Program-made: the position numbers and the translations under genes
Notes under the pieces: generated by a model
What the model was told of the DNA's origin: nothing
Seen by the model: only the letters and a program-made list of their open reading frames with translations
Database searches by the model: none
Assembly: GCA_020072815.1 (NCBI GenBank)
Contig: JAIQGE010000009.1
Location: 1-64,000, forward strand
Source of the DNA: Terriglobia bacterium
Lineage (GTDB): Bacteria; Acidobacteriota; Terriglobia; Terriglobales; Acidobacteriaceae
Reading direction: 5' to 3'
DNA: 64,000 nucleotides
Shown here: positions 9,062 to 62,467 of the stretch, one piece after another
How positions within the stretch are numbered: position 1 is the first letter of the stretch
Layout: each line of letters begins with the position of its first letter

Positions 9062-9077
9062 GGTGACGCGCGTCACA
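9062..9077. promoter_or_regulatory. Crp/Fnr-type operator, GGTGA-N6-TCACA
   Basis: GGTGA-CGCGCG-TCACA keeps the GTGA/TCAC core with a 6-base spacer. It is centred about 63 bases before the cytochrome c ATG at 9133. The rest of the gap 8935-9132 shows no gene. Confidence 0.6.
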
Positions 9078-9132
9078 GCGCTCTTGGGCAATTTAAGAGG
9101 ACGATTGCATGTGGGGTGCTAGGAGTAAATCC

Positions 9133-9594: not shown

Positions 9595-9611
9595 CGCCGT
9601 CGCGTGGCACA

Positions 9612-35420: not shown

Positions 35421-36095
35421 ATGAAAACGAAATATTGGTACTCAATCCTTGGTCAGCATAGAATCTCGTCGAACCATATTCTGTCTATGAACTGGCCAGA
35501 ACTCCCAGACCGGAAGTTGGTCGAACTGTGTCTTGAACGTAATGAGGACGCATGGGTCGAGTTGCAGCGCAGATATCACCGCATGATTGTCGGAGTTCTG
35601 GCCAGGACAATCCGTCCATGGTTCCCGCCAACCCCCAGCGTGCTGGAAGACCTCTACCAGGACGTTCTTCTCAAGATCTACGGCAACGAATGCAGGGCGT
35701 TGAGCGAGCTTGAATGGCGTCATGAAGGTGCTCTTCGAGGATTGTTGCAAGTAACCGCGTCCACAGTCGCCCAAGACTACGTGCGCTATTGGCTTGCCCA
35801 AAGGCGAGACCCTAGAAAGGTAGATTCGCTGGAGGATCCGGGCGTAATAGTACCGGACCAGAAAGGGTCTGGCGAAGATGTCGAGCAGAAGGTCCTTCTG
35901 CAACAGTTGATGCACTGCCTGAAAAAAGTGATTCAAAGCGAACCGGATTGCGCGCGCGATATTGCTATGTTTCTGCTTTTTTATGGGTGCAGGGTTACTG
36001 CGGCGGATCTTGCTCGAATTTACAAGCTAAATGTCAGGAAAGTGGAAAATATCGTGGCTAGACTTGGCCGTTTGGCTCGGTCCCATTGTCTCTGA
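35421..36095 (+). CDS. ECF-like sigma factor paired with CHAT protein
   Basis: Up to 224 residues. Region 2 is seen in AWVELQRRYHRMIVGVLA ... LEDLYQDVLLKIY, and region 4 in VTAADLARIYKLNVRKVENIVARLGRL. It is a divergent ECF member. ATG 35487 (MNWPELPDRKLVELCLERN) may be the true start since the 22 residues before it are atypical. Base use is visibly less GC-rich than the resident genes. The next gene encodes anti-sigma-type zinc motifs, so the pair likely forms a sigma/anti-sigma switch. Confidence 0.78.
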   Translation: MKTKYWYSILGQHRISSNHILSMNWPELPDRKLVELCLERNEDAWVELQRRYHRMIVGVLARTIRPWFPPTPSVLEDLYQDVLLKIYGNECRALSELEWRHEGALRGLLQVTASTVAQDYVRYWLAQRRDPRKVDSLEDPGVIVPDQKGSGEDVEQKVLLQQLMHCLKKVIQSEPDCARDIAMFLLFYGCRVTAADLARIYKLNVRKVENIVARLGRLARSHCL

Positions 36096-36157
36096 AGTCA
36101 ATCAGATGAAGGGGGCCTGCATTTTGAAGGATAGGGTTTATTGCATTTCTTACGTCT

Positions 36158-39100
36158 ATGACTAACGAGGGAAGCGTGAATCATCATCTAAGTGATGGTC
36201 AGATCAAGGAATGCGCAGGCAAGAGCCCAGACGGCTGCCTGGACGAGATCGAAACGCATCTCTCCGGTTGTGGGTTCTGCTTGGATCGCCTACTCCAATG
36301 GCAGCGTACCCATCTCAAGAACCTGGAGTCGAACGGTATGAGGCTGGAGCCATATCAGGATTGCCCCCCCGACAGCATCCTGCAAGAAGTTGCTGCTGAG
36401 GTATCTGCTCCTGAAACCGCCGCTCACATACTGCAACACGCAGCCCAGTGCGACCATTGCGGCCCCCGGTTGAGCAGATACCTGCGCGAATTCTCTGAAG
36501 AACTCTCTCCCGAAATCGAAGCGCTCATAGAACAGTTGCCTACCTCACAACCCAATTGGCAGAGACAGAAGGCGCGGGAGATTGTTCGTAGCTTGCGCCC
36601 GCCTGGCACGAGTCCATCATTTATTCAACAGATCCGGGCCTTGGTACAACGCCTTGCCTGGGCGGTTGCCGCGGCCGCAGTAGCGGTTGCGACGATGGTT
36701 TGCTTCGTTTGGGGTCCGGTGCTGATTGCCGAAGTGCAACTCCACAAAGAGCAAAAGCGGGTCGCGGCAGCTTACGCTGAGCGCCGAACTATCGAGCCAC
36801 GCATCACCGGGGTCGGCTATGGCTCGTATCAGGAGCCCATCCACACGCTGGGACAGGAAGACGAATCGGACGATCTGACTCGGCCTGCGCTCCTTGAAGC
36901 GCGGAGCAAGCTGGCCGACATGCTGAAATCCGACGGCAACCGCGATCCGCACTTGCAGCAGATTGAAGGTCGTCTTCGTCTCCTGAGAAACCCTGCTGAC
37001 GCCATAAAGGCAGAGGAGGCTTTCCAACGGGCACAATCAAAGGGGCTGAACGACCTCAGCTTAGAAATTGACTTGGCGGTCAGCTACTTCGAACGCGAGA
37101 TCAGGTCCGACAGCCCCAACATGTCAAAGCCAATCAATCTCCTCAGGAAAGTCCTTGAGGCCAATAACCCAAAACCAACACGGGAAGAGCAAGCGGTTGC
37201 GCTGTTTGATCTTGCCCTTGCTTACGAAAAGACCAAGGTTTGGAGCTCAGCGATTACGACGTGGAAGGACTACCTTAAAATCGATTCTTCTGGTCCCTGG
37301 GCCGACGAAGCCCATAAACACTTGGCTGAAGCTGAGGCAATCGTTTCAAAGCAGCAAAGCTACAAGGATCCGGCCGACCTCGTTCGGCACTCTTCCGATC
37401 CTGAGGTGCAGAATGACATTGAATATTATCAGGAGCGTGTGCTGGGAGAATGGTGGCTGAAGGCGGTTGACCAGCCATTGAGCGATTCAGGGCGGGCCGT
37501 GCGCAAGGTTGCTGAGCTGCTCAAGCAACAGCATTCTGATACCCTTTGGACAGACTTGGTCAATTCCACCAGCAGGGCAGATTTGCCCGCCGTGAAGGCA
37601 CTAAGCGATGCGTTTGCGGCCAATCAGAAAGATTGGCATCAAGAGGCGCTCGACAAATCTCGCGAAGCAGCACGGATTTTCAAGAAGCAACACAATACGC
37701 CGGGCGAGTTGCTGGCCCGCTTTCAGGAAGTCTATGCGCTTCAGAGGAGGCTTGCCGGCGATGACTGCTTGACGCGAGCGGCCGATCTCTCGCCAAGAGT
37801 TGCCGCGACGGGGTACCACTGGTTGTACGGGCAACTAGCTCTCGAAAAAGCCATCTGCGCGAACTTGGTATTCAAGTTTCAGACGGCTGACGCCAATCTG
37901 GAGATCAGCCGTGCGGTGGCCTCCGAGGCTGGTTCTAACTTCCCGGAGCTTCGGCTGCGAATAGCCGGAATAGAAGCCGGAATGAAACGGCTTAATTTCG
38001 AGTATGACGGAGCTTGGATCGAGTCAGTCAAAGGCCTTGACGACTATTGGCAGCATTCGTATTCAGCAGAGCGGCTCTACCAGTTCATTACCGTGATGCG
38101 CCAATCGGCTGCGGAAACTGGTTTCTCCTATACAGCAGAAGCCCTCTTGCGAACGTCCATCGAGATTCTTCAGGACATTGCTCCCGACGACAATCTTTTG
38201 AAGGCCCTACTCCACATGAGGCTGGCTAGCCTGTTGTGGGAACAGGACCAAGACTCGTTAGCGGAAGCCGAGGCCCTCCATGCGCGGTTGTTACTCCGTA
38301 AAATCTCTCCCACAGACCCTACGGCTCAGACATATACCGCAATGGCCAGGATTGAACTGGCCGACTTCGAGTTGCGGCGCCGCAAAACAGCGCTTGCCCT
38401 CTCTGCGATTCAACCGATTGGAGAAAACATTGCGTCTCAAGATAACTTCGTCAAGCTGGACTTTTATCGCGTGCTGGGAGACGCAAAGCTGCAGTTGAAT
38501 TGGCTGGACCAAGCCTTGGCGGACTATCGCCAGGGCATTGGCGTGGCCGCGCGTTCTCTTCCTGATATCCGGGATGAAGAAAAACGTTTACGCTGGATCG
38601 CTGCGACCGGCAACATCTATCGTGGTGTCGTCCAAGTTTTCCTGGCAAAAGGGCAAAGCGATAAAGCACTAGCCATTTGGGAGAGGTCTAGTGGCCGATT
38701 TCTAGTTTACGGAGGCAGTATTCAGATACTAGACGTCGCAAAAGAACTTGGGGAAATACGCCTTCCGGTGGCTGTCCACCCACATGTTGTCTATGCCAGC
38801 TTTGCGGATCGGATGCAAGTCTGGATCGTTGAAGGTACCAAGAGCCAAAGCCAATCAATCCCGTTGACTCAGATCGAGCTGTTAAGAATGATCCGGGAGT
38901 TTAACCAGAATTGCAAGAACCCTAATTCTTCCAGAAGTGAACTCGATGGGCAGGCTGCAAGGCTGTACGAATTACTCTTGAAGCCGGTAATTGCCGGTCT
39001 GCCCTCAACTGAAACCGTAGCGATTGAGTTTGACCAGTTGATTCCACAATTTGCAATTGAGGCGTTGAGAAGCCCGCAAGGCCGGTATTTTGGGGCAGAC

Positions 39101-39769
39101 TACGCGGTGTTGCGGTCGCCCGGGATCCTCGCCGAAGGCGCTCTTCGGCAACCTTTGCCGCTCAAAATTCGGGATACGTTTCTGGTTGTTGATGCTTCTC
39201 CGGTGAGCGGACCAGGCCGTCTGCCTGGCCATCAGATGCCAACAGAAGCTATAACTCAGATTCATCCCCAAAGAACGGTTTTCACAGGTGAAGATCTAAC
39301 CCTTGGAAAAGTGAAGCAGGCGTTACGAAACAGCATTGCGCTTCAGATCATGGGCCATGGACGGCGAAGCAGCAAAGGAATGGCTCTGGAGTTAGGTTCC
39401 GATATGTTCTTGCGATCGAAGGACCTTTCTCCAGAACTTCTGCGGCGTATGCGCCTCGCCGTATTGGCGGCATGTTCCAGTGGTTCAGCCGAAAATGGGC
39501 TTCTTGATGCTGATAATTTGGTGCGTTCCTTGCTTGCCGGAGGGGTGCCCAATGTCATCGCCAGCCACTGGGCTGTAGATTCTACGAGCACGGGCGCGCT
39601 TTTTGAAAGCTTTTACCTTAACCTAGGCAAGGGAGAGACCCCTGCCGAGGCGCTTCGCGATGCCCGCAGAGAGATGCTCTCTGGAAAACTAGACTCGAAG
39701 TGCCACAACTGCGACCTGTCTCACCCTTATCGCTGGGCTGCTTTTAACCTGACCGGCCGATCCAACTGA
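36158..39769 (+). CDS. anti-sigma zinc motifs - TM - TPR-like - CHAT protease fusion
   Basis: 1203 residues. The N-terminus has two H-X3-C-X2-C motifs of the zinc-anti-sigma kind: His34/Cys38/Cys41 and His94/Cys98/Cys101. One membrane helix follows (about 163-188). Residues about 250-850 are helical repeats with TPR character (AVALFDLALAYEKTKVWSSA). The C-terminal 270 residues are a CHAT (caspase-like) domain with the catalytic pair His1067 (IMGHGRR) and Cys1106 (LAACSSG) both intact. The parts should sit as anti-sigma region in the cytoplasm, one membrane pass, and repeats plus protease on the other side, unless the helix is not spanning. GTG 36176 behind GAGGGAAG is an alternative start. 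It probably controls the sigma factor encoded 62 bases upstream. Confidence 0.82.
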   Translation: MTNEGSVNHHLSDGQIKECAGKSPDGCLDEIETHLSGCGFCLDRLLQWQRTHLKNLESNGMRLEPYQDCPPDSILQEVAAEVSAPETAAHILQHAAQCDHCGPRLSRYLREFSEELSPEIEALIEQLPTSQPNWQRQKAREIVRSLRPPGTSPSFIQQIRALVQRLAWAVAAAAVAVATMVCFVWGPVLIAEVQLHKEQKRVAAAYAERRTIEPRITGVGYGSYQEPIHTLGQEDESDDLTRPALLEARSKLADMLKSDGNRDPHLQQIEGRLRLLRNPADAIKAEEAFQRAQSKGLNDLSLEIDLAVSYFEREIRSDSPNMSKPINLLRKVLEANNPKPTREEQAVALFDLALAYEKTKVWSSAITTWKDYLKIDSSGPWADEAHKHLAEAEAIVSKQQSYKDPADLVRHSSDPEVQNDIEYYQERVLGEWWLKAVDQPLSDSGRAVRKVAELLKQQHSDTLWTDLVNSTSRADLPAVKALSDAFAANQKDWHQEALDKSREAARIFKKQHNTPGELLARFQEVYALQRRLAGDDCLTRAADLSPRVAATGYHWLYGQLALEKAICANLVFKFQTADANLEISRAVASEAGSNFPELRLRIAGIEAGMKRLNFEYDGAWIESVKGLDDYWQHSYSAERLYQFITVMRQSAAETGFSYTAEALLRTSIEILQDIAPDDNLLKALLHMRLASLLWEQDQDSLAEAEALHARLLLRKISPTDPTAQTYTAMARIELADFELRRRKTALALSAIQPIGENIASQDNFVKLDFYRVLGDAKLQLNWLDQALADYRQGIGVAARSLPDIRDEEKRLRWIAATGNIYRGVVQVFLAKGQSDKALAIWERSSGRFLVYGGSIQILDVAKELGEIRLPVAVHPHVVYASFADRMQVWIVEGTKSQSQSIPLTQIELLRMIREFNQNCKNPNSSRSELDGQAARLYELLLKPVIAGLPSTETVAIEFDQLIPQFAIEALRSPQGRYFGADYAVLRSPGILAEGALRQPLPLKIRDTFLVVDASPVSGPGRLPGHQMPTEAITQIHPQRTVFTGEDLTLGKVKQALRNSIALQIMGHGRRSSKGMALELGSDMFLRSKDLSPELLRRMRLAVLAACSSGSAENGLLDADNLVRSLLAGGVPNVIASHWAVDSTSTGALFESFYLNLGKGETPAEALRDARREMLSGKLDSKCHNCDLSHPYRWAAFNLTGRSN

Positions 39770-39878: not shown

Positions 39879-40910
39879 ATGAATCGACGCGACTTGTTAC
39901 AAGCCATGCTTGCCGTGCCCGTAGTTGGCGCCCTGGGCGGCTGCCGGCACCAGCATAATGATCATCGCCCCAACCCTCCCGCACGAGGCGGAACCTTGAA
40001 GGTGATTCTGCAGGGCCCGTTTGCCCTGGTGGTAGATACAAAGAACCACAACAGGATCAAGGCGTTTGCTCCATTCGATGGCGATGGGAAACATGAATTT
40101 CGCTTCGGGGACCCTCACCATGATCCCGTCAGCGGCGAGGGAGATCCCGGTAAGCGAAACCGTTATGACTTCACGCTGCTCGATGACAATTTGGAAATCA
40201 GCGAGCGGCCACCGCATATTGACGCTGGTTTTGCCGACTTCACGTTGCATACCGGCGACTGGAAGCCGAGCCTCAACGAGTACTTTGTTGCGGTAGATCT
40301 TCCGGCGCCAGACCGCGTTACCTTTACTCCACCGGCCATCCCCGTACTAATGCCGGGATTCAAGCCGGAGCCTGAATCCAGGCTGGCAATGATGCCAACA
40401 AACCATGTTCTTGAATACAGTGTGCATGAGGTTGACGACAAAGTCATACTGCACTCCCCACAACTCGGAGACACGAAGCCACTGTCGTGTTTGGACTTGC
40501 TTGGCCGCTATCAGGAACACTGGGCTGAGATGGAAAAAGAGCATCGAAACACATGTCAGCGCAGGTACACAGAAGCGGAGCTCAATGGCTGTGCAAATTC
40601 CCATGTCAGAGTGTTCTTCCTCGGAGTTGGGTTGCCGCCTAAGAGCCCGACGTTCGATATGGATGCTGCAACGCACGCTCGCGAATTCTACAACAACAGG
40701 TTGCTGCCTTCGTTTCCTAACTCTCCTGACCTAGAGAGCAAGAAGCTGCTGGAGGTGGACGTAAAACCCTGCCCGGCGGTCGGGAACGGCAGGAATTCGC
40801 CCACGCTGATTCCTGCTGCGCAGAGGTACCCTGTGCCGCAAGCCCGTATGGTCCCGGTCTCTTCTGCCGACGATTGCCGAGCGGGCGGGACCATTGGAAT
40901 TCGGCCCTAG
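39879..40910 (+). CDS. Tat-like lipoprotein of unknown function
   Basis: 343 residues beginning MNRRDLLQAMLAVPVVGALGG. It has a twin-arginine-like NRRD, a hydrophobic stretch and a lipobox GGC with Cys22. The mature part has no family I know. It contains several His/Asp-rich segments (GKHEFRFGDPHHDP) and a late Cys-rich area. TAAGGAG precedes the ATG. It is the first gene after the CHAT protein on the same strand (109-base gap) and is likely in the same regulon. Confidence 0.65.
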   Translation: MNRRDLLQAMLAVPVVGALGGCRHQHNDHRPNPPARGGTLKVILQGPFALVVDTKNHNRIKAFAPFDGDGKHEFRFGDPHHDPVSGEGDPGKRNRYDFTLLDDNLEISERPPHIDAGFADFTLHTGDWKPSLNEYFVAVDLPAPDRVTFTPPAIPVLMPGFKPEPESRLAMMPTNHVLEYSVHEVDDKVILHSPQLGDTKPLSCLDLLGRYQEHWAEMEKEHRNTCQRRYTEAELNGCANSHVRVFFLGVGLPPKSPTFDMDAATHAREFYNNRLLPSFPNSPDLESKKLLEVDVKPCPAVGNGRNSPTLIPAAQRYPVPQARMVPVSSADDCRAGGTIGIRP

Positions 40911-41736: not shown

Positions 41737-41812
41737 AAGCTTCAGGACCGCGCACAAGAGAGAGTTCGCACAAACACGAGATTTGTCTTGACGCAGTGAA
41801 AGGAGATTGAAA

Positions 41813-44164
41813 ATGGCCGAGAAAGACAAAAACAGACAGCCGCAGAAGGACACTGGAGCGACTGGCAGACCTGAATTGAACGACCCAGACTTTCAGTTTG
41901 CGGTGAAAACTCTTCTTGCCGCATATCAGCCAATCTTCGAGCAGCAGCTCAGCCTGGCTAAGAATCCACCTGAGCTGCAGAAACAGGCGGAAGTGACGGC
42001 ATCGCGCACTTGCGAGGACGAATTCCGCGAAGCTTACCAGTTGGTCGAGAAATTCTTTACCGATGAGTTTGCAATTCGAATATTGCCTGCTCAGGCGAAG
42101 GAATTGCTAGGGCCCATCGAAGAGTGGCGCTGGTGCTTGCGGCACATCTTGTGCTGCGTTGTATTCGGGTTGCTTGTCTGCCGCTGGCCACGCACCTTCC
42201 GGGGATTCGCCTACTATCTGTATGAATACTGGAGATGCGTCCGCCAGGTCATCGACGCCCCTATAAGCGATCTCCCGACTGCCGAGCAACGAGAAGACTT
42301 CCAAACGCTAGTCAAGATTCTTGCCGAGGCATTCAAGCCTTACCTGTTGGACCAGCTTGCGACCGTCGAATTCTCCGAGGGCATTCCGGACGAGATCATC
42401 TCCGGGAAGATCGACTGCTTCATCGATGAACGGGAAACCTGCATCATCTTTGAACGGCTATTGACGACCGAGGCGGCGAGGGCCCTTCTGGGACGTGCCG
42501 TGTTCGAGAAGATGAGCCAACAAAGGTTCTTCTGGTTCTGCCGTTGCTGGTGCCTGTGTTCAATTTGCTTTGGATGCTGCCTCGCGCGCGCACGGAACAT
42601 TCAACAGTATCTATTGTGCTTGCACGCATATTGGCGCTGCTTGCGCGACTGTTTTCGGCCTTTGACGTGCGATGTAACCGATCCGCACGACTGCATTGAA
42701 GAAGAGGAATTCCCCGCCCTCGGCATTCTACGAGGGGTCGAAATCAAGGGTACAGCCGCGGGCGCCTTCTGCGATCATTACACTCTGCAATGGCGTCAGG
42801 GCGGCGGCCCTTGGCAGAGTGCAGGCATCATTTATCCCGGCGGTGCTGCGCAAGGCGCGTGCGGAGTCGTTAATGGCACGCTCGGTTATTTGCAGACCCT
42901 TCCCCTCGTTTCCCCAGGACCGGCAATCGCCGAAATCCAGCTCTGTGTGTTTTCCACTCAGGGCGGAGCACCGCACTGTTGCACCACCCAGTTCATCCTG
43001 CAGCGCAATGCAGTCTGGATCCGCGGCCTGGAGTATGTGAACGCACCCGACATTTTCGATCCCACCTCGCAGATTGTGAGTGGGGCCGGCGTGGTGCAGT
43101 CTTTCGGGAATGCGTCACTCATCAACGGCAGTGCCGTCATCGGTGGGTGTCAGGGCCAGGACATCAAGCGTTATACGCTCGCCTACTACCCCGACTTCGT
43201 CACCGACCCTACCTTGCCTGGCTTCGTGCAATTCTGGCAGGTGGACTACATCACTCCTCTGCAGATCGACGATGGCTTGAACCGCGTTTTCGAAAACGCT
43301 CTCACCAGCTTCTGGACGGAGTTCAATTTCCCATTCCCCGGTCATCCCTGCAACCCCGCCTTCGATTCTCTGCAACCCACTCGGTGGCCACAGTTGTCTC
43401 CTGAAGCACTGCCGCAGCAGTTTCCGCCTGCTCCGCCGCAACCTGCCCCTTGTTTGCCGCCTCCATCATGGACCACAACTCCGCTGCCACTGCCGAACTG
43501 CCAGAGTGGCAAATTTACGTTGCGGTTGAAGGTGGAGGGTCAGGGCGGAGCGGTCAAGACCAGCTTGCGCCAGGTCTGGTTTGATAATAAGCAGATCAAA
43601 TTCAGCCATTGCCACATCACACAAATCGCGGGCATCGACCCGTGCTCCACGGTCGATCTAAGGCAGTTTGCTCCGCCTGGAGGAGACTGCTCCGTACCGT
43701 GGAAGGCCAACCTCTTGGGCGTGGCCTACGATGAGTACATTTTCCCTGGCGATACATCGGTACCAAGCGACAATTTTGGAGGTTATAGCCTCTGGATCAA
43801 GAAGGATGGGGCTCCGGACCCGGGACATCCCATTCCAATTCCCGGGCCCGGCAATCCGCCTTGGCCGGGTCCATTCGCGGGCACGGGGCGGGTAGGAGAT
43901 CCTGGCGGTGATGTTTGCCCGTATACCACTATCATTCCGCCGCCGATCGACGGGATTCTTGCTGTCCTGGATATGCGTCGCCTCGACGCACAATGTAACC
44001 CAGCCGAGCCAGACTTGACCCTGAAGCGTGGTGAATGCTGCGGTTTCATTATCACGTTGAAGGTGTGGGACAACACAATCTGCCCCGGTCTGGCTGGAGG
44101 CCATCACGAGAGCGAGCATCACTTCCCCATATGCATCTGCAATCATGTAGATGGGGGTCACTAG
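41813..44164 (+). CDS. Cys-rich protein with internal duplication, unknown function
   Basis: About 783 residues. Residues about 25-150 and 158-285 are two copies of one helical unit. Each ends in a Trp/Cys-rich stretch (EEWRWCLRHILCC ... YYLYEYWRCVRQ and FFWFCRCWCLCSICFGCC ... CLHAYWRCLRDCF). The remaining 500 residues are beta-rich and Pro-rich, with phrases such as GVEIKGTAAGAFCDHYTLQW. No signal peptide is seen. AAAGGAG precedes ATG 41813. The Cys-dense helices could bind metal or sit in a membrane. It is the largest unexplained gene of this island. Confidence 0.62.
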   Translation: MAEKDKNRQPQKDTGATGRPELNDPDFQFAVKTLLAAYQPIFEQQLSLAKNPPELQKQAEVTASRTCEDEFREAYQLVEKFFTDEFAIRILPAQAKELLGPIEEWRWCLRHILCCVVFGLLVCRWPRTFRGFAYYLYEYWRCVRQVIDAPISDLPTAEQREDFQTLVKILAEAFKPYLLDQLATVEFSEGIPDEIISGKIDCFIDERETCIIFERLLTTEAARALLGRAVFEKMSQQRFFWFCRCWCLCSICFGCCLARARNIQQYLLCLHAYWRCLRDCFRPLTCDVTDPHDCIEEEEFPALGILRGVEIKGTAAGAFCDHYTLQWRQGGGPWQSAGIIYPGGAAQGACGVVNGTLGYLQTLPLVSPGPAIAEIQLCVFSTQGGAPHCCTTQFILQRNAVWIRGLEYVNAPDIFDPTSQIVSGAGVVQSFGNASLINGSAVIGGCQGQDIKRYTLAYYPDFVTDPTLPGFVQFWQVDYITPLQIDDGLNRVFENALTSFWTEFNFPFPGHPCNPAFDSLQPTRWPQLSPEALPQQFPPAPPQPAPCLPPPSWTTTPLPLPNCQSGKFTLRLKVEGQGGAVKTSLRQVWFDNKQIKFSHCHITQIAGIDPCSTVDLRQFAPPGGDCSVPWKANLLGVAYDEYIFPGDTSVPSDNFGGYSLWIKKDGAPDPGHPIPIPGPGNPPWPGPFAGTGRVGDPGGDVCPYTTIIPPPIDGILAVLDMRRLDAQCNPAEPDLTLKRGECCGFIITLKVWDNTICPGLAGGHHESEHHFPICICNHVDGGH

Positions 44165-47155: not shown

Positions 47156-48100
47156 TTACGCTGCCTGTTCCTTGATGAAAGCCTCAATGTCTGCCTCAGG
47201 AGCGCCCGACGCTCGCATCGCTTCAACGGTCTTATCAATCTTGTCCTGCAAGGGTAGGGGGAGCAACTCCGGTAGAGCCTCTGCCGTCTCGACCTGTCCG
47301 CGCAACCGCGCCATGCGCCCCACCTTGCTCCTATTCCGCTCATTCAGAGCTGCCCGATATTCGTCCCCAGATTTTCTCCACCATGAAATCGCCACCTCAT
47401 GAATCGGTGCGCGCGCGTGCCGGCGGCGCAAGTCGATATTCACTCCCAAATCCGAAAGACCGTTTACTTCAAGGAGGGCAGGGGCCACAACTTTCCGCTG
47501 CAAATCCAGCCCGCGCTCATATGTGCCAGGCGGCACGCCGAGCAAATCCCGGAATTGCTCATACGACAGAACCTCGATGCAGTGTTCCCGGTTCGCGCGA
47601 AGACACACCAACTCATATAGCGCAATCGCGTACTTGCTTGTCATCGCGTAGGCGATCTCGCAGCGGATGCGTCCCCAGCGGTTCGATTTTGCAAGCACGA
47701 CGCGGAGCCGCTTTGGTATCCCGAATTGCACTGTTGCGTCGCTCGATTCCTCTTCATCGGTGTCGGTAAACTCAAGGAGGTGTGTTTCCATCACACGTTG
47801 CTTGCCCGTGCGCGCTGAGAGATACGTCACCTTGACTTCGGTGCGCCGCAGCCGCCTGAGACTTTCCCTGACGCGGTCGTTGCTTTCATGTTTGGAGGAA
47901 GCACGACGAAGAGAGCTCAACGTAATTTCCCACTCCGCGTCAGGTTCTACGAGCTTGTCGCTATCGTGTGCGATTTGTAGCAGCTGATTAAATATTGCGC
48001 GGTCCGAAGCCTCAAGGGCATGGGCGCCGGTGATCTCAATCAGCTCGGCTGCTTTGGGAAACCCATTAATGTTGGTAAATTGATTGACGGTCAGACTCAT
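47156..48100 (-). CDS. plasmid replication initiator, Rep_3-like
   Basis: 314 residues with two winged-helix parts. Signals include YAMTSKYAIALYELVCLRAN and LSYEQFRDLLGVPPGTYERG, which match the RepB/Rep_3 group that binds iterons to open theta-type origins. The origin lies immediately upstream on its 5' side. A partial inverted iteron (TAATGCGAC, 48113-48121) overlaps its presumed promoter, suggesting autoregulation. The C-terminal 70 residues are charged. Confidence 0.8.
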   Translation of the reverse strand: MSLTVNQFTNINGFPKAAELIEITGAHALEASDRAIFNQLLQIAHDSDKLVEPDAEWEITLSSLRRASSKHESNDRVRESLRRLRRTEVKVTYLSARTGKQRVMETHLLEFTDTDEEESSDATVQFGIPKRLRVVLAKSNRWGRIRCEIAYAMTSKYAIALYELVCLRANREHCIEVLSYEQFRDLLGVPPGTYERGLDLQRKVVAPALLEVNGLSDLGVNIDLRRRHARAPIHEVAISWWRKSGDEYRAALNERNRSKVGRMARLRGQVETAEALPELLPLPLQDKIDKTVEAMRASGAPEADIEAFIKEQAA

Positions 48101-49001: not shown

Positions 49002-50252
49002 CTATGCGGTTTTCTTTGGAGGGTCAGGCAGCTTGAGATGAGTAGCCACACTGCCGGGCTCGACCATCGCGCGCCAGTCCTGAGTCAGCTTTGTTCTATC
49101 TTCGCCTAGTCCCAGCAAATGCCTCCATAAACGGCGAGCCAGCTTTTCCGCTTCGACCGTAACCGTCATTTTCTTGGTGGCGGAATTCCACAGCACACCC
49201 TTCCACGGAGCGCCGTTCAGATCCTGAAAGTTTTCTACCACCGCCTTGATATGCTTAATTGTCATATTGCCGGGTGCAGTGGCCATCGCGCCCACGAAAG
49301 CCGTGATCCCAATGGGCCGCACCAGAATATGCCCGCCCGCGACTGTGCGGTAGTCCTCAACGGTCGCCTGTGGTTTCAAGAGCTCCTTCCAGGGATCTAC
49401 CGCTTTGATCATCTTGTCCCAAGAATCCGAGAGAGAAGAGAACGCTTCTTCAAGGCTCTCGAAGCTCGGAATTTGTTGCTCCTTCTTGAACTCCGCAATA
49501 AGATGGGACGGCAAGAGATCCTTGTTGCACTTACGGAAGGTCTCAATGGCCATCAGGTAAGGACGGTCGGCTGCAGAAGTGGCGGACATGGCATTGCCCG
49601 TGGCGAGCTTCTGCTTTCCGTCCCGCCCACTAACCTTCACCTTTATTCTCTGCTTGAAAAGCTCGTGCTCGCGAATCAGCCGACGGGTAACGAGTGCCAC
49701 GCCATCGTCTTCACTCATAGCAGTGTGCGTTGCGGGAGAGGTTTTCTTCGCGTACCGATTTACAGTCGTAAAGAGACGTCGCGCGCGACTGCGGCCTTCC
49801 TTATCGTCGTTATGACAGATGACAATCGTTGAGACCTGATCGTCTTTGTAACGCTCTGGTTCTCTTTTGAGTTCGATCTGGAATGCCGCGAGGCGATGCT
49901 GTCCATCGAGCGCGTAATATTGCTCCGTGCCGTCGAATTGTAAAACGCCAACTCGGCTTTCACCGGCTAGGAGTGATTCGTCGAACGCAATCGGCCTAAA
50001 CCTCGGCTGGCCATCGAGTGCGGCGATGATCAGCGAACCAAAGAACCGTTGCTCGTTCATACTAAGGTAGTCAGCTATGTCCTTGGCACGATTCGTGAGC
50101 TCGCGCTGAATCATACTGTCGAGGTCCGGATTTGGCGACAGTTCTTCAGCAAAGCGGACGTACCGCACTAAATCGCCCACTCCCATAACGGTTACGTAGT
50201 AAGTCCAGTCGCCCATAGTGCCCCGAACACAGGGGAAATACGTTGTTTTCAT
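49002..50252 (-). CDS. DndB-like DGQHR-domain protein
   Basis: 416 residues with the signature DGQHR at 116-120, preceded by a DndB-type N-terminal part (MIQRELTNRAKDIADYL). In dnd systems DndB represses the modification operon and its family binds DNA. This is the last gene of the operon. Its ATG overlaps the GIY-YIG stop as ATGA. It is likely a regulator of this cassette. Confidence 0.75.
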   Translation of the reverse strand: MKTTYFPCVRGTMGDWTYYVTVMGVGDLVRYVRFAEELSPNPDLDSMIQRELTNRAKDIADYLSMNEQRFFGSLIIAALDGQPRFRPIAFDESLLAGESRVGVLQFDGTEQYYALDGQHRLAAFQIELKREPERYKDDQVSTIVICHNDDKEGRSRARRLFTTVNRYAKKTSPATHTAMSEDDGVALVTRRLIREHELFKQRIKVKVSGRDGKQKLATGNAMSATSAADRPYLMAIETFRKCNKDLLPSHLIAEFKKEQQIPSFESLEEAFSSLSDSWDKMIKAVDPWKELLKPQATVEDYRTVAGGHILVRPIGITAFVGAMATAPGNMTIKHIKAVVENFQDLNGAPWKGVLWNSATKKMTVTVEAEKLARRLWRHLLGLGEDRTKLTQDWRAMVEPGSVATHLKLPDPPKKTA

Positions 50253-50746
50253 GCGGTGAGTCTCCCTTTGAGTTCGAGTTGCGTGTTGCCATAGGGGGTC
50301 AGGTTGTCTTTCAAAAGGGCTTCCGCCCGTTTCAGCTCTTCTTTGGGTACCAATGTGTAGTGGAATTGAAGGTAGCCATCAAAATGATTGAGAAATAACA
50401 CGACGTGCTCGCGGGGATTTGTTCCGCGCCCTGCTTTTTCGGCCAGGTATTTTGGGTAACGTTTTTTGAGGCTCGTGGCTTTGCCTACATAAAAAATGTA
50501 GGAGTGATCTGTCAGCCCGCCGCAATAGGGTCCGGCCACGAACATGTAAATGCCCGGCTTGTCCGGCAAGACAGGAGCAGGGTCCGTAAACGGGACGACG
50601 TACCATTTGCGGCCTTTATAGTAAGAGTTTAATTCCTTGGTGTCCCACAGTCGGGGATACAGTTTGAATGGAAAAATACCTTCTTTCCTTGCCCTGAAGT
50701 CGGCCAGAACGCGATTCGTGACAGGAGCTTCTCCATAGCGAACCAT
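50249..50746 (-). CDS. GIY-YIG superfamily nuclease-like protein
   Basis: 165 residues. It has GIY at 65-67 and YVG at 86-88 followed by KATSLKKRY with the conserved Arg. A Glu lies in the helix EELKRAEALLKDN, and Asn154 in PYGN. All positions expected of a GIY-YIG active site are present. An additional 60-residue N-terminus is of unknown type. It starts directly after the cysteine desulfurase stop (TAG then ATG). Its presence inside a DndA/DndB-like pair is unusual and it could be the cleaving effector. Confidence 0.75.
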   Translation of the reverse strand: MVRYGEAPVTNRVLADFRARKEGIFPFKLYPRLWDTKELNSYYKGRKWYVVPFTDPAPVLPDKPGIYMFVAGPYCGGLTDHSYIFYVGKATSLKKRYPKYLAEKAGRGTNPREHVVLFLNHFDGYLQFHYTLVPKEELKRAEALLKDNLTPYGNTQLELKGRLTA

Positions 50747-51916
50747 CTATGCAGTTTCCAGTTTCTGGGCCGGAGCGGTAACGGAAGCAGCCACCACCTC
50801 GGTAAACACCTGAAGGAAGAGGTCAACTTCCTGCTCCGTCGATTCGACCGAAAGGCTTACCCGCACGCAACTCTTAGCCTGCTCATAGGACAGGCCGTGA
50901 GCGAGCGCAACATAGGACGGCTTCCGGGCTCCATATGAACAGGCTGATCCGGCTGAGATCGCGATGTCTTTCGACGCCATCCAATCCACCAATTCCTCCG
51001 CATCAATCTCAGGCAGGCAGACATTCACGGTGGTCGGGAGGCGACTTACCGAAGCGCCAAGCACAAACGCGTTGGGGCAGATCCCGAGAATCCCTGATTC
51101 AAGCCGTGACCGCAGCCGTCCCACTGCGGTCATAGCCTGCTCAGCGTCAAGCAGGGTTACCAGAGCGGCGATCATACCCACCACGCCAGCAGGATTCTCC
51201 GTCCCTGCGCGCAGCCCGAGCTGCTGTCTTCCACCATGCAGGATGGGTGTCAGCATGTCGGAATCGCGCACGAATAGCGCGCCCGTGCCTTTGGGGCCAT
51301 GAAATTTGTGAGCCGACAAGGAGAGCAGGTCTACGTCTGCCAGGTCGCCTGACAGATCGATGGGAATCTTGCCGACAGCCTGCGTCGCATCCGTGTGAAA
51401 GAGGATCGAGGGATCATGCCGTTTCACGACTCCTGACAGCGCTTTCAGTGGCTGAAGTACGCCGGTTTCATTGTTCGCCATCATGACCGAGACCAGCAGC
51501 GTCTCGGCCGACAAGGCATCCACGAGCGCCTGCTCACTCACAATCCCGTCGGGAGTTACCTGCACGGTGCTGATTCGCCAACCGTCAGCCCGAAGCACCT
51601 CACAAACCTCCATCACGGACGGATGCTCTATCGAGGAGATAACTATATGCCGTTTCTGACGATTGGCCCGCGCCGCGCCAAAAAGGGCCAGATTGTTGCT
51701 CTCGGTGGCACCCGAGGTAGTAACGAACTGGCTTCCGCTGTCCGCACTTAATGACTTGCACAGGCGCGCCTTTTCGTTCTGGATGGTTTGCGCAATTCCG
51801 TCGAACTGGGCAATAGCTGACGCCGGATTCGCAAAGCGTTCGGTCAGGAACGGACGCATAGCATCGACGGTGCTCTCAAAGACCCGCGTGGTCGAATTAT
51901 TGTCGAAGTAGATCAT
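50747..51916 (-). CDS. cysteine desulfurase (DndA/IscS type)
   Basis: A 389-residue class V aminotransferase-fold enzyme that takes sulfur from cysteine as a persulfide. His98 stacks on PLP, Lys204 in SAHKFHGPKG forms the Schiff base, and Cys326 in SAGSACSYG carries the sulfur. In dnd clusters this enzyme (DndA) feeds DndC. No DndC is in the window. Its ATG overlaps the FtsK-like gene's stop as ATGA. Confidence 0.88.
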   Translation of the reverse strand: MIYFDNNSTTRVFESTVDAMRPFLTERFANPASAIAQFDGIAQTIQNEKARLCKSLSADSGSQFVTTSGATESNNLALFGAARANRQKRHIVISSIEHPSVMEVCEVLRADGWRISTVQVTPDGIVSEQALVDALSAETLLVSVMMANNETGVLQPLKALSGVVKRHDPSILFHTDATQAVGKIPIDLSGDLADVDLLSLSAHKFHGPKGTGALFVRDSDMLTPILHGGRQQLGLRAGTENPAGVVGMIAALVTLLDAEQAMTAVGRLRSRLESGILGICPNAFVLGASVSRLPTTVNVCLPEIDAEELVDWMASKDIAISAGSACSYGARKPSYVALAHGLSYEQAKSCVRVSLSVESTEQEVDLFLQVFTEVVAASVTAPAQKLETA

Positions 51917-54900
51917 CGGGGCACATCCGCCGGCCGCCCGTGCTCAACGCGGATCAGGCGCACCAATTGTGGAATCGTGCGTTCTATGTCGATGAACGGA
52001 ACCTGGGCAAAGACGGCTTCGGGTGTATCCCCGGTCTTCGCCAGCATGTGCCCTCGTCCGAGCAGCCTTTCCGCGCCGGAATTCTTGCTTCCCATTGCAA
52101 TCTCGGCGGTAGCAGCATTGTCGACCTTGAGGATCAAGCGGTTGCCGAGCTGAGAGCGAAGCTGCATGGGCATAACATCCTTGTCAGGCCGCTGGGCCGC
52201 AAAGAGCAGGAAGATGCCCGCGGCCCGGGCCTTCACGCTCAGCCGCCCGACGATGTTGGGGACCGCATCGCGATAGTGGTCAGTTTGCATCCAATCGGCG
52301 AATTCATCGTGGACGATCCACAGTATAGGCAACTGTTGGCCGGTACTGCGTCGATAGGCATGGACGTTGGGCACCTTGGAGGCCTTGAACAGTTCATACC
52401 GCCGGTTCATCTCGTCTACCAGTCCCTCAAGCACTTTTACCGCGGCATGCGGATCGTCAATAATCCCTCCCGATCCTACTTCCACGTGAGGTAATTCGTC
52501 CAGTGGACGGTAGTCCACGCCGAATTTGGGATCTATCAGGTAAATGTGCGCCTCGGAGGGGGTGCGCGTAGCGGCGATGCTCAGAATTAGGTTCTGCATT
52601 AGAACCGACTTCCCGCTTCCGGTGATTCCCGCGATTAGCGTGTGCGGCTGATTGAGCGGATCGAGCAACAGGGCCTGGCCGTCCTCTTCGCGTGTGCCCA
52701 CGCATAGTTTCTCTCCCATTCCGTGCTGGCGGTAACTGCGCATGTATGCTAACAAGACCGGCTCCGTATGCAGTATCTGGCGATTGGGCCGCTCAACAGC
52801 AATGGACACCCTGCCGGATTCGGGGGTGGCGTGAATGATTTTGATCCCTTCCGATGTATATATCTCATCCGCGCGGGATTCAACGGCCTGAACAGTGAGA
52901 TCCTTGGAGCCCTGGAGCTTGATAATGCCTGAATTCGGAGTAAGGATAGGCGGAGTTCCATCGATCAACCGCGCCGGCAGCCCGCGGCTTATGAGGGATT
53001 GACGCACTTGAGTAGTAATGCCTGCGAGCCACGCTTGACCCGCTTCTTCGGAGCTATGGTGCAAAGCAGATTGCTCCTGAAGGTACGCTTCCACCGGAGA
53101 CAGGTCGTCGACGCTGTCGGGGACGGCGCTTGGTGCGGCGGCCGAGCCGCGAGTCGGCTCGTCGCCGGCATTGGGTTCGGGAGTCATGGGCCGCTCTATG
53201 ACCGGTTCAGACTCGCGTTCCCGGTTCGTGTCGCCCAGGATGGGCGTCGATTCGCCCTGGGGCGCGGCGGCTTTTACCCCGCCCTTGCTCGTAAGACTAT
53301 AGAGCTTTGATTTTCCGAAGGCCGGATGACCGTTGCGTAGCCGAAGTTCGGCCGTAGCCTGGAAGGCCGATTCGAAATAGTGATTAATCAATTCCCGGAC
53401 GTGACCTGGGCCGAAGACTTCTTGTAAAGCGTCGAGCTTCGTCGTCCCCTTTGTATTCGCGATTCCCTTCACCGTGGACACCTGCGCCGTCAGATCTTGC
53501 GGCTCGTGCACGAAGATATGGGAGTACCCCCAAATGCTGACCGAGCATTGACGCTGCCGGATTGCGCGGCGCCATGCCACAGAATCCAATTGCGGCCGAC
53601 CCGGCGCCACGACCGTCTGAGAAGCCACCAAATCCGACAAGCGGGCAAGCCAGATGTCCTGATCGATCGTTTTTATGTCTCCATCCATCGCCTCCGTCAT
53701 CTGCGACAGCGTATCGATGAGTTGTTTGGCGGACGTGCTTGCCGCTCCGCCCATCCCGTCGTGCGTGACGAACTTCGCTTCGGTCACGATGATGTCCAGA
53801 TGCATCGTCCCGTCGTCGCGCACCGTGGGGGCAAGCACGAGCAGATCCGCAATGTTGGCTCCCTCCTTCTTGCCCAGCCACTCGCTGTAATCATCCAGAA
53901 AGCACCACGCAATTGGCCGTTCCACGCCGATCTCCGACTGAACCAGGTATCGCGAGAGAACCATGCCGAGCAGCTCGTTGGTATTGTTCGCTCGCCGGGC
54001 GGCTCTCAGGACAAGCCCGCCAGACACCTTGTTGGCGTCGCGAATGAAATGCTGCCATAGCGTTTCGATAACGTGATCCGGCGTATCGGACGCCAGCAGC
54101 AGCCTCAGCTTTTCCTTCAGCGTATTGACTAGCAGGGTCTCGCGGGCCGAGGAGGAGATGATGAGATTGCGCCCGTGCGTCGCAGACTGGACGTACCGAA
54201 TGACCTTCACCTGGCGCGCTTCAAGCAGCTTCCGGTCGAGGAGTTCATCCTGGTTAACGACCCAGGTTGCCAATTCATGAGTTTCACGGAAAATGCGATC
54301 CACACTTAAGTCGTCAAAATCCAGGGAGCGCATGAGAACCGGGCACTTGCCGATGGCCCAGGCATCGTCGGCCCCGTGGGCGCACAGCGCGGCCACGGAG
54401 TAAAGATAGGCCCAACCCGCTTCCGTCTGAGCCGGGCAGGTGAGCTGCAATCGCACTTTCCGGTCGCCTTCGCTTACCGGTAGGCGCCTGCTCCACTGGT
54501 GCGGTTGCAGATCGACCGGCTCCGCCGTCTCACGCGGCAGCCATTCCCAGGCCGGTTTGGATTCCCGCGAAATAAGATCCCGGCAATAGGCAATATCCAC
54601 GGGTTGCGATCGGCCTTCCCGGCGAAGGCGGTTTGCTGCGGTGATATTGACGCGAACTTTGGCGAGAAAATCGCCTGATCCTTCGGTCGGATCGGCCTCG
54701 GCATCGACACCCCGCGCCACGAGATCGCGATAAATCTGACGCAAGTGAACTTCGTCGCGGTGCATCAACAGCACCTGGCAGGTTATCTTGTTATCCTCAC
54801 GCTTCGCGTTGATACGGTTAATGGTCTCCACCACCGCCGTCGGCAGATCCGGAGAATCGCAGTTGTACAAAAGGATAGAGAAATTGTCCCGTTCATGCGG

Positions 54901-57342
54901 CTGGAGCCTGAGATACTCAATCATCTCGCGCTCGATCGTCGCAGCCGCGGGCTTTGATTCGTCGTCCAGCGACGGCATGGCTGCGTCGCTTGCAGGTTCG
55001 GGCGGTTGGTGAAGGGTGTAGCCATCAAAGGCCTGCGTTACGATGCGGGGCATCGCTTGCGTGCCTTCCCACACCACTGACATCTCGGGGTAGAGGGGAT
55101 GACTGAGAAGCTGCTCCACTTCGCGGAAAAAGAGGGCACCACTGGTGCCATCGGAAAAGGGAGGGCGATCTTTGCCGAGCAGCTGCTCGACGAGACCCAG
55201 CACCTGTTGCTGGCGCGCAGCGGACGCTTCCATCCTCAAGGGATGCCAGGGGCAAATCACCGCCATTGGGGGGCGCCGGCCCGAACGTGGAACCTGCGCA
55301 AGTCCCACGCGCATCACGATCCGAAGAAACTGCCGGCGGGCATCCTGGTGCCTTAGGAGATTGATCTTCAGAAGAAGGGATCGGTACGCCGCCGCTGCGC
55401 CGGTGACGTTCTCCGAGGCAAGCACCGACTTGCGGAGGGAGAGCAGGGCGGTGTTATATGCAGATTCGAACCCGCTAAACGCATCTGAAAGCTCCGATAT
55501 GTCAGCCGGTGGGAGCCATTGCTGCGTTTGCGCGTTCGAGAGGGTCTGCCGCCACGTGGCGGTCAACGACTCGATACGGTCCTGAGCAGGAACGAACGCT
55601 CCACGCCCGCCGCCTCTGGCTACGTCGGCGAAGCCTTCGACGTTTTGGAGGGACAACGATACAGGAGTACCCTTTCGGCCGACTGCTTCATATTCCGCCA
55701 CGCACCCCACCAGCGCAGTTCCGCGATGGGCATGATAGCGGGCGATTGCATCGAAATCCGCCACTTCCTGCGCGAGAACGGACGCCACGGGAAAGCGCCA
55801 TGTCAAGGAAAGGGCCGCGACTTTCCGCTCGCTGCCTCCCCGGTTCTTCTGGAAGATGGAAACAAGGAAATTGAGCGTGGTGGCGCGCCCGGTTTTGCTT
55901 GCACCCTTGAACTTCGGCTTGTCCTTGATCTTTGGCAGAACTGCCTGAGAGTAGTTGCAGATAAGGGTTTGTTTAAACTGGATTTTATTTTTTGTGCTCG
56001 CCTCAAGCGAACCGTAGGCGCGTTCAAAATATTCGCATGCCCGCTGACTCATGTCGATGAAGCTGTTTGGCTTCGCCTGCTGCTTTCCTTCCAGGACGAC
56101 ATAAGCAGGTTCGTTAGGTGACAGCCCTCGAATGCACCGATGCAGGCACTCAAAAATTCCCTGGAAGATATCCGTGCATTCCACGCGCCTGCCATGAACG
56201 AACTCCTCCCATTCCAGAAAGAGGCTGACATCGGTTTCGAGCTGCTCTGCGCGCCTTTCGAAGAACTCACGGAATTCGTCAGGCGCCGATCCCGCCTTGC
56301 GTGCGACTTTAGACAGCGCCTGAATGACAAGCATGTCGTCGTCGCTCGGAACGATGCCTTCATTCTCAAGCGCACTCCTCGTGCGTTCCGCGAAGTCCTT
56401 GGAGGTAGACTTCTTGGCCTTGTCAAAACAGTGGGTTGTGTAGTTCCAGTCAAACGTGAACAGCAGCCGCTCGGTGGAAGGGTTACGAGCCCCGTCCGAG
56501 TCGATGTAATCCTGAAACGCGTTCAGCAGGTCGTCCTGCAGCGGTGGCTTCTGTTCGTCCGACCGAAGCAGCGCGAGACGTTTGCGCAGCACTTCCGGGT
56601 CGAGCATCTCCTGCGACAGACCGCGCTTGTCGAGATAGCACTCCAATGCGTAATGAGACCTGAATTTGGCTGCCCATTGCGACGCTTGCACCATCTTCGA
56701 TTCGTTCAAGGAACTGAAGCAATCTTCAAATAAGGGAAGGCCGATAATCGGAAGCGCTTTCCCGGCTGCCCGTATGAGGGGTTCCCCGCTCTTGAAGTTC
56801 AGAAGTGCCGCTGTGAGAAATTCGCCAGCCTTAGAGGTGGGACAACGTCCCGTCTCAAACAACCCCTTGACCATTGCCTCAGCCTTCCGGCGGTCCTCCG
56901 GAAGGAGATTGATCCCCACTCTGTTCGCTACAAAATCCACCCAGATGTGGGCGATATTCTTATCTTTGAGATCGGAGGCGTCGGTCCGATCACTATCGGC
57001 AAGTGAAGCCTCGGCATCCGCTTCAACCTCGGCTGTGAGCGTCACAGACCCGTTACGCTCGCGGTTGCGAACGTTTACGGAGGAATCGGATGTGGTGTAC
57101 CGCGCATCCACTCCGAACGGTCGTAGCTCGAACTCAGGAAACTGAATGGATAGGCGCGAAGCGCGCGAACCCGCGGCGGCCGTAGCTTCGATGAATCCGG
57201 CCAACTGTTCGGCGGAAAAGCCGGAGAGCACATGGAATGCCCCCCTGAAATCGGGATCGTCCTCCATCTGCGGCTTGAGCTTGAGCAAGATGAATTCCAG
57301 CGCTACCGCGCCTACGAGGGCATCCGGGGGACTAATGCTCAT
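51913..57342 (-). CDS. giant FtsK/HerA-like ATPase, DptH-like
   Basis: 1809 residues. Only the C-terminal 300 are recognisable: GITGSGKSVL with Walker Lys near residue 1578, IYLIDPKFG, WIVHDEFADWM as Walker B, and a sensor-like FAAQRPDK, all as in FtsK/SpoIIIE motors. The first 1500 residues have no family I know. DptH of dnd restriction systems has a similar size and C-terminal motor, so a DNA-translocating effector is likely. It has ATGA overlaps with both neighbours. Confidence 0.7.
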   Translation of the reverse strand: MSISPPDALVGAVALEFILLKLKPQMEDDPDFRGAFHVLSGFSAEQLAGFIEATAAAGSRASRLSIQFPEFELRPFGVDARYTTSDSSVNVRNRERNGSVTLTAEVEADAEASLADSDRTDASDLKDKNIAHIWVDFVANRVGINLLPEDRRKAEAMVKGLFETGRCPTSKAGEFLTAALLNFKSGEPLIRAAGKALPIIGLPLFEDCFSSLNESKMVQASQWAAKFRSHYALECYLDKRGLSQEMLDPEVLRKRLALLRSDEQKPPLQDDLLNAFQDYIDSDGARNPSTERLLFTFDWNYTTHCFDKAKKSTSKDFAERTRSALENEGIVPSDDDMLVIQALSKVARKAGSAPDEFREFFERRAEQLETDVSLFLEWEEFVHGRRVECTDIFQGIFECLHRCIRGLSPNEPAYVVLEGKQQAKPNSFIDMSQRACEYFERAYGSLEASTKNKIQFKQTLICNYSQAVLPKIKDKPKFKGASKTGRATTLNFLVSIFQKNRGGSERKVAALSLTWRFPVASVLAQEVADFDAIARYHAHRGTALVGCVAEYEAVGRKGTPVSLSLQNVEGFADVARGGGRGAFVPAQDRIESLTATWRQTLSNAQTQQWLPPADISELSDAFSGFESAYNTALLSLRKSVLASENVTGAAAAYRSLLLKINLLRHQDARRQFLRIVMRVGLAQVPRSGRRPPMAVICPWHPLRMEASAARQQQVLGLVEQLLGKDRPPFSDGTSGALFFREVEQLLSHPLYPEMSVVWEGTQAMPRIVTQAFDGYTLHQPPEPASDAAMPSLDDESKPAAATIEREMIEYLRLQPHERDNFSILLYNCDSPDLPTAVVETINRINAKREDNKITCQVLLMHRDEVHLRQIYRDLVARGVDAEADPTEGSGDFLAKVRVNITAANRLRREGRSQPVDIAYCRDLISRESKPAWEWLPRETAEPVDLQPHQWSRRLPVSEGDRKVRLQLTCPAQTEAGWAYLYSVAALCAHGADDAWAIGKCPVLMRSLDFDDLSVDRIFRETHELATWVVNQDELLDRKLLEARQVKVIRYVQSATHGRNLIISSSARETLLVNTLKEKLRLLLASDTPDHVIETLWQHFIRDANKVSGGLVLRAARRANNTNELLGMVLSRYLVQSEIGVERPIAWCFLDDYSEWLGKKEGANIADLLVLAPTVRDDGTMHLDIIVTEAKFVTHDGMGGAASTSAKQLIDTLSQMTEAMDGDIKTIDQDIWLARLSDLVASQTVVAPGRPQLDSVAWRRAIRQRQCSVSIWGYSHIFVHEPQDLTAQVSTVKGIANTKGTTKLDALQEVFGPGHVRELINHYFESAFQATAELRLRNGHPAFGKSKLYSLTSKGGVKAAAPQGESTPILGDTNRERESEPVIERPMTPEPNAGDEPTRGSAAAPSAVPDSVDDLSPVEAYLQEQSALHHSSEEAGQAWLAGITTQVRQSLISRGLPARLIDGTPPILTPNSGIIKLQGSKDLTVQAVESRADEIYTSEGIKIIHATPESGRVSIAVERPNRQILHTEPVLLAYMRSYRQHGMGEKLCVGTREEDGQALLLDPLNQPHTLIAGITGSGKSVLMQNLILSIAATRTPSEAHIYLIDPKFGVDYRPLDELPHVEVGSGGIIDDPHAAVKVLEGLVDEMNRRYELFKASKVPNVHAYRRSTGQQLPILWIVHDEFADWMQTDHYRDAVPNIVGRLSVKARAAGIFLLFAAQRPDKDVMPMQLRSQLGNRLILKVDNAATAEIAMGSKNSGAERLLGRGHMLAKTGDTPEAVFAQVPFIDIERTIPQLVRLIRVEHGRPADVPR

Positions 57343-62392: not shown

Positions 62393-62467
62393 GTTCTTAA
62401 CGCCAATAATTTTCAACAGTTTGTAGCCACATTCGCCGCAAGCCCCACAGGACTGACAGCTCAGAAA

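Follow-up and report, generated by a model that had tools for sequence, protein, structure and literature searches.

Well-known membrane anti-sigma factors such as RseA and RsiW depend on a separate site-1 protease. The one solved example which we found of an anti-sigma factor carrying its own CHAT domain is DdvA from Myxococcus xanthus (PDB 8rlz, 8rot, 8rw5), a transmembrane protein with an N-terminal zinc domain, a TPR-type solenoid and a CHAT domain that is paired with the extracytoplasmic function (ECF) sigma factor DdvS and, according to the PDB title of 8rw5, is dimeric. In Myxococcus, DdvS controls an antiphage island. The pair is the subject of Bernal-Bernal 2018 and 2024; the 2024 study, in Sci Adv, reportedly proposed autoproteolysis in trans followed by RseP for DdvA, placed its TPR-CHAT part in the periplasm and called its active site incomplete. 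In PMC4374960, DdvA is described as the cognate anti-sigma factor of DdvS, with a signal that is not known. A TPR-CHAT protease of similar fold is likewise tied to a sigma factor inhibitor in the Csx29/Csx30/CASP-sigma system of type III-E CRISPR, where Csx29, according to PMC10028731, is activated by RNA and works with Cas7-11 as a protein in its own right. Here we describe a locus from a Terriglobia bacterium (assembly GCA_020072815.1, contig JAIQGE010000009.1, positions 1 to 64,000, this whole stretch being called the window) in which a sigma factor gene is followed by the gene of a DdvA-like protein. We consider it likely that the two genes encode a sigma/transmembrane anti-sigma pair of the DdvS-DdvA type with a built-in periplasmic CHAT site-1 protease, whose cut would be followed by site-2 release.

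The two genes and the parts of the anti-sigma protein are as follows.

35421..36095, + strand: ECF-type sigma factor gene (224-aa open reading frame (ORF); from the family alignment, the start is probably Met23, base 35487)
36158..39769, + strand: predicted DdvA-like transmembrane anti-sigma factor containing TPR-type and CHAT domains (1203-aa ORF; Pfam, model and structure matches)
36257..36280, + strand: first HX3CX2C motif, residues 34-41 (H34/C38/C41)
36350..36499, + strand: second zinc domain, residues 65-114 (invariant H94/C98/C101; fold like the ChrR sigma-binding domain)
36653..36709, + strand: membrane helix, residues 166-184 (hydrophobic; N-terminus predicted inside)
36863..38704, + strand: TPR-type helical solenoid, residues ~236-849 (structure model)
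37766-37768, + strand: invariant Cys537, in the solenoid (36/36)
37856-37858, + strand: invariant Cys567, in the solenoid (36/36)
38954..39757, + strand: CHAT protease domain, residues 933-1200 (Pfam E 2.4e-36)
39356..39358, + strand: His1067 of the CHAT dyad (36/36)
39473..39475, + strand: Cys1106 of the CHAT dyad (36/36)

The sigma ORF and the anti-sigma ORF are separated by 62 bp. The original prediction, made from the letters of this DNA, had claimed an ECF-like sigma gene in front of the anti-sigma gene, both triplets of zinc residues, a membrane helix, helical repeats and an intact CHAT pair, and all of these were recovered, the class of the sigma factor by way of a family alignment. It had further seen restraint and protease as fused. 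This holds in so far as they form one polypeptide, but the fusion is not unprecedented, as DdvA has the same layout and a solved structure.

Judged by sequence and model, the layout is indeed that of DdvA: a zinc domain, one membrane helix, a TPR-type solenoid and a CHAT domain, with an ECF sigma gene adjoining. The best Foldseek match of the model of residues 200-1203 (predicted local distance difference test score (pLDDT) 89.6, predicted TM-score (pTM) 0.85) is DdvA in 8rot (rank 1, E 1e-17, TM-scores 0.62/0.68). In a VIA alignment 846 residues were matched with Z 24.3 and a root mean square deviation (rmsd) of 5.1, model residues 1-1001 being set against residues 98-991 of DdvA. The likeness of fold spans the protein from residue 200 to its end, and DdvA (8rot/8rw5) was the sole end-to-end structural match seen. 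Csx29 (8eey) reached Z 27.8 in VIA over 544 residues with an rmsd of 11.7; the Csx29 and separase chains align better on the C-terminal part or on scattered stretches. A phmmer search of the PDB with the full anti-sigma protein gave nothing at E<=1. The CHAT profile finds the DdvA chain 8rot by sequence (5.1e-13), and the profile of the N-terminal zinc region finds DdvA weakly, with the same matched stretch in 8rlz (E 0.014) and 8rot (E 0.23).

Relatives were collected as loci, to which we refer by L numbers. Within the genus 8/9 genomes have a match at E<=1e-15, and in a sample of the class 24/299 genomes have one at E<=1e-20, two candidates being scored per genome. Among the best 80 matches of a CHAT query the top ones are acidobacterial and the lower ones are generic CHAT proteins of many phyla. 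A sigma ORF lies directly upstream on the same strand in all 37 other loci with a readable anti-sigma start (gaps from -187 to 336 nt, with a median of 27). The conservation of the pair, which the original prediction had asked to be surveyed, is thus supported. Two of these 37 loci belong to the window's own genome; L053, L086, L112, L113 and L116-L118, which lack the gene start, and L115, a duplicate stretch, were not counted. As a control we took those CHAT genes of the listed CHAT-query loci that have at least 1500 nt upstream: a sigma gene precedes 7/7 CHAT genes with a zinc domain versus 4/54 without one. In three of these four (L127, L134, L135) the system is split and the anti-sigma factor has an ORF to itself; the fourth is L147. 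The control overlaps with the main set, at least three of the seven (L128, L129, L132) repeating loci among the 37, and L127 being identical with L049. The window's genome also harbours a full-length paralogue (L037:9211-12912, + strand) that shares 36% identity with the window protein and is accompanied by a sigma gene of its own and by a homologue of the lipoprotein-like neighbour gene.

The sigma factor of the window is divergent. Its single Pfam match at E<=1 is weak and unrelated, TIGR02937 matches with E 4.3e-5, which is under the curated cut-off, and phmmer against the PDB found nothing meaningful. Because the sigma factor and the zinc region of the window are too weak in Pfam and NCBIfam alone, family alignments were needed. 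TIGR02937 is found at E<=0.001 in 36 of the 37 aligned sigma proteins (L042 being excluded from this alignment), Sigma70_r2 at E<=0.01 in 30 and region 4 (PF08281) in 12, and the family profile matches solved ECF sigma factors, e.g. 1or7. By this family alignment, and with sigma regions 2 and 4 only, the window protein is assigned to the ECF sigma factors. With regard to an autoregulated promoter, the upstream DNA of the sigma genes was compared in two small groups, in which no clear block could be recognised by eye.

The HX3CX2C motif occurs twice in the 1203-aa protein, both times near the N-terminus, where 0.004 occurrences are expected by chance from the composition. The original prediction regarded both motifs as anti-sigma-type. 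For the second this is supported: His94, Cys98 and Cys101 are invariant in 38/38 aligned N-domains, and the model of residues 65-114 resembles the sigma-binding domain of ChrR (Z 8.2, rmsd 1.8, 50 residues), as well as RslA (Z 5.3), RsiW (Z 4.0) and, more weakly, the N-terminal domain of DdvA (Z 2.5, 33% identity). Two motifs are present in 26/38 N-domains and only one in 12/38; therefore the second motif is the essential one, and the first was rejected in this role. The predicted fold of residues 1-200 has a pLDDT of 87.3 and a pTM of 0.47, and plain Foldseek on the small zinc domain returned every E-value >1. The profile search which the prediction had proposed for this region gave a divided result, as zf-HC2 does not match the window's own zinc region by itself but is found at E<=0.1 in 19/38 aligned N-domains (best 1.5e-7). 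Taken by its motif and its modelled small helical sigma-binding domain, the protein is a putative zinc-binding anti-sigma factor.

In the large C-terminal part, Pfam TPR matches are weak (E 0.018 and above), and the label TPR therefore rests on the fold. Pfam CHAT is found in 36/36 aligned CHAT halves (the fragments L086 and L113 were left out), and His and Cys are kept in all of them although the domains are diverged. The fold with its His-Cys dyad identifies a CHAT peptidase, whose proteolytic activity is predicted.

Several features point to a periplasmic location of the CHAT domain, across the membrane from the sigma factor: the position of the hydrophobic segment, the bias of positive charges, the Cys pair, the segments of separate CHAT genes and the predicted exported neighbour described below. 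In 37 N-halves the 19-residue hydrophobicity peak of the first 330 residues lies after the zinc domain, and its mean as printed is at least 1.6 in 34 of them. Lys plus Arg are richer before than after the helix in 29/37, equal in five and poorer in three; L038, whose 183-aa protein ends ahead of the segment, was excluded from this topology count. By the secondary structure of the model, Cys537 and Cys567 occupy the open end of a helical hairpin (model helices 335-350 and 355-371, model numbering), where a disulfide between them is plausible. In four loci CHAT has a gene to itself whose start can be read (L134, L135, L101, L040), and each of these genes encodes its own N-terminal hydrophobic segment (15-residue mean 2.14-2.29).

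In the mechanism that we favour, the second zinc domain would clamp the ECF sigma factor in the cytoplasm, as its fold and its conservation suggest. A single membrane helix would lead to a periplasmic TPR-type solenoid, ending in a caspase-like CHAT protease whose His-Cys pair is complete. A signal in the periplasm, perhaps passed on through the neighbouring exported lipoprotein, would switch on the CHAT domain, which would then act as site-1 protease and cut the anti-sigma factor, in cis or in trans, at a point close to the helix but outside the membrane; a site-2 intramembrane protease and cytoplasmic proteases would complete the cleavage and free the sigma factor. M50 (site-2) proteases are present in the genome. 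If this is true, a receptor carrying its own protease would unite the sensing and the cutting step in a single polypeptide.

A number of observations weigh against this mechanism. By VIA Z the DdvA chain ranks 20th, behind chains of Csx29 and separase. The M50 proteases are near-universal, being present in 14/14 control genomes as well. The hydrophobic segment is weak in L099 (1.58), L111 (1.43) and L101 (1.27; 19-residue means), and the disulfide is deduced from helix positions. In one relative, L042, the sigma gene (3209-3733, + strand) has an in-frame stop within the region 4 part, with the anti-sigma-CHAT gene still open. Two loci, L038 and L052, consist of a sigma factor and a zinc anti-sigma factor with no CHAT gene found adjoining; in L038, which is from the window's genome, the sigma gene is followed by the gene of a double-zinc anti-sigma factor of 183 aa without membrane helix or CHAT (8062-8613 and 8892-9620, both - strand). 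A CHAT domain is therefore not indispensable to such sigma/anti-sigma pairs, and it could also be a sensor without catalysis.

Downstream of the CHAT gene lies the following gene.

39879..40910, + strand: predicted exported lipoprotein, candidate partner of the CHAT half (twin-arginine-like leader, Cys after a hydrophobic stretch)

Ten other loci, none of them from beyond the genus, have a homologue of it 3' of the CHAT gene, and blastp at the thresholds used found none in the remaining loci. Inspected by eye, 10/11 of these proteins, the window's included, have a twin-arginine-like leader (exception L050) and 9/11 a cysteine at the position expected for the end of a lipobox (exceptions L037 and L049); the Pfam TAT_signal profile matches the window lipoprotein with E 0.03 only. 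Pairwise distances in 11 loci, among them L042, give partial r values of 0.81 for sigma factor and zinc half, 0.58 for CHAT half and lipoprotein, and 0.09 for zinc half and CHAT half. As the 55 distance pairs are not independent, this co-variation is a hint only. The DNA of L047 and L049 is ~90% identical through the sigma gene, the zinc domain and a run of nine T (T9, see below), drops sharply to ~50% between 196 and 226 nt past the run, and is ~89% identical again after the lipoprotein gene; the corresponding protein identities are 91% for the sigma factor, 94% for the N part, 52% for the CHAT half and 43% for the lipoprotein. The simplest reading of the sequences is that the CHAT and lipoprotein part was replaced by recombination, in this one pair. 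A second nearby CHAT gene in L047/L049 likewise has a diverged middle part.

The same data could be explained if the periplasmic CHAT domain acted on another substrate, e.g. the neighbouring lipoprotein, and the anti-sigma factor were freed by a DegS-like site-1 protease or by a change of conformation. We regard this as possible but unlikely. It would fit that the lipoprotein distances track the CHAT half and the zinc half tracks the sigma factor, the two halves of one chain barely co-varying, and that CHAT half and lipoprotein diverge together in L047/L049. However, the sample is small, non-independent and includes the disrupted sigma gene of L042, and the lipoprotein is found in the genus only, whereas the fusion of CHAT and anti-sigma factor reaches further.

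In some relatives the gene is frameshifted at a homopolymer (coding strand) at the domain junction.

L041:8212: T9 run
L047:9318: T9 run
L049:9232: T9 run
L044:8375: A10 run

No such run occurs in the window gene, which is a single uninterrupted ORF. In L041, L047 and L049 the T9 run that breaks the ORF has one common position in the alignment, shortly past the first helical-repeat block, and beyond it the CHAT half continues as an open -1 frame; in L044 the CHAT half is likewise in the -1 frame after the A10 run. Since L047 and L049 share one shift, the four loci represent at most three independent events. The same T9 is in frame in L043 and L048 (the contig of the latter ends soon after), coding for Phe-Phe-Leu, as does an in-frame T10 at residue 391 of L099, which is from another genus; there is no run at the junction of L086, whose record stops early. 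The -1 CHAT frames by themselves lack a membrane segment (15-residue mean <=1.10 in the first 200 residues) and thus, given the periplasmic topology, would need the first ORF. In the genus loci A/T runs of at least nine occur eight times inside these genes (57 kb) and once outside (258 kb; p 8e-6), and two of the eight (L042, L050) are in frame and away from the joint; outside the genus there is one inside and none outside (p 0.26). The position of the T9/A10 runs at the joint, with the CHAT half in the -1 frame behind them, suggests that some relatives may make two anti-sigma isoforms by slippage. This could happen by slippage during transcription or equally by -1 frameshifting of the ribosome, and an internal restart may also be possible. 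Shigella mxiE is reportedly a case of slippage. For anti-sigma genes no report of slippage or frameshifting was found among the papers listed from the open-licence literature, judged by titles and starts of abstracts, which is not proof of absence in print. The main text of PMC3711429 makes no mention of CHAT or anti-sigma.

Alternatively, the frameshifted relatives might be decaying or mis-assembled genes and the T9/A10 runs meaningless, which again seems rather improbable to us. Homopolymers are hot spots of mutation and of assembly errors, all frameshifted loci come from draft genomes, and the eight long runs of the genus include a single homologous run five times over, so that their enrichment is in truth weaker than the p value given. 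Against decay speak the CHAT frames, which can be read through to their ends and have kept their dyads, and the in-frame relatives L043 and L048 with the same T9. The N parts of L047 and L049 show a ratio of non-synonymous to synonymous substitution rates (dN/dS) of 0.09 at a dS of 0.33. If the shift is older than the split of these two and the CHAT part was not acquired late, 17-18 stops per CHAT frame and lineage would be expected without selection, while none is observed. The run itself has survived at saturated synonymous sites, for which the chance by synonymous choice alone is 0.009-0.033 per lineage.

If slippage is real, the ratio of restraint to protease would be set by imperfect transcription or translation, with a short anti-sigma factor without protease and a long one with protease as its products. 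We put forward, tentatively and with more doubt than belief, a wider picture of this apparently acidobacterial branch: receptors with a catalytically complete site-1 protease, the dose of which would be tuned by the gene itself, in some members through T9/A10 slippage, and with an exchangeable CHAT-lipoprotein sensor cassette that would recombine while the sigma-zinc part stays constant.

Two further explanations do less well than those discussed so far. The CHAT domain might be a catalytically idle ligand sensor, the fold of which relays a transmembrane signal; it is common for enzyme folds to be reused in sensing, and the active site of DdvA, as mentioned, is said to be incomplete, but the retention of His and Cys in 36/36 diverged domains makes this improbable here. 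A cytoplasmic Craspase-like module with CHAT on the sigma side, cutting the restraint directly in the way of Csx29/Csx30, the system with which the original prediction had compared it, we consider very improbable, since despite the strong match of Csx29 to the C-terminal part and the frameshifted CHAT frames without membrane segment, which would remain inside if internally started, the prediction is that the membrane separates the zinc domain from CHAT, as indicated by the hydrophobic segment between them, the positive-inside bias, the own segments of separate CHAT genes and the predicted exported neighbour. Two-step regulated intramembrane proteolysis fits this topology.

The surroundings in the window contain the following genes, and a model-based search recognised no CBASS or CRISPR protein among 28 window proteins (Pfam) or eight (PADLOC), the genome not having been searched for Cas genes.

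14897-20266, - strand: large alpha-2-macroglobulin-like protein
41807-44164, + strand: 785-aa ORF, without Pfam or NCBIfam matches (E<=1) and, by blastp, without relatives in the loci examined
47156-48100, - strand: plasmid initiator protein of the Rep3 type, separating the sigma locus from the Ssp island
49002-62416, - strand: phosphorothioation-type Ssp defence island, starting 9 kb past the CHAT gene

The Rep3-type initiator hints at a mobile element. The Ssp island has PADLOC matches to DndB, SspA/DndA, SspH, SspG, SspF and SspB (the scan did not include the ORF 59532-61397), only the C-terminal part of the model being matched in the SspF ORF (281 aa).

In comparison with known systems, ChrR, RslA and RsiW share the fold of the sigma-binding zinc domain with the window protein, but their matched chains are short (62-185 residues) and lack a TPR-CHAT part. 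The system also differs from Csx29/Csx30, where a separate TPR-CHAT protease acts on a separate inhibitor, in being one fused membrane protein with a predicted opposite-side topology. ECF54 sigma factors resemble it in having CHAT proteins in their genetic context; in the review PMC8999054 they are discussed as acting without an anti-sigma factor, unlike the window system. The layout is already known from DdvA, as probably is the mechanism in outline, and the window system is therefore best described as a variant branch of the DdvA kind. The branch differs from DdvA (991 aa versus 1203 aa in the window) in its mostly two zinc domains, its full-length Pfam CHAT match, its lipoprotein neighbour in the genus and its split and frameshifted relatives. 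What is new, then, is a branch in which the CHAT domains are of full length, most members have two zinc domains and a Cys pair is invariant, with a co-varying predicted lipoprotein in its genus part. With about three dozen natural relatives which have a complete dyad, with split forms and with a candidate partner, this branch makes the idea of autoproteolysis, reportedly proposed for DdvA, testable.

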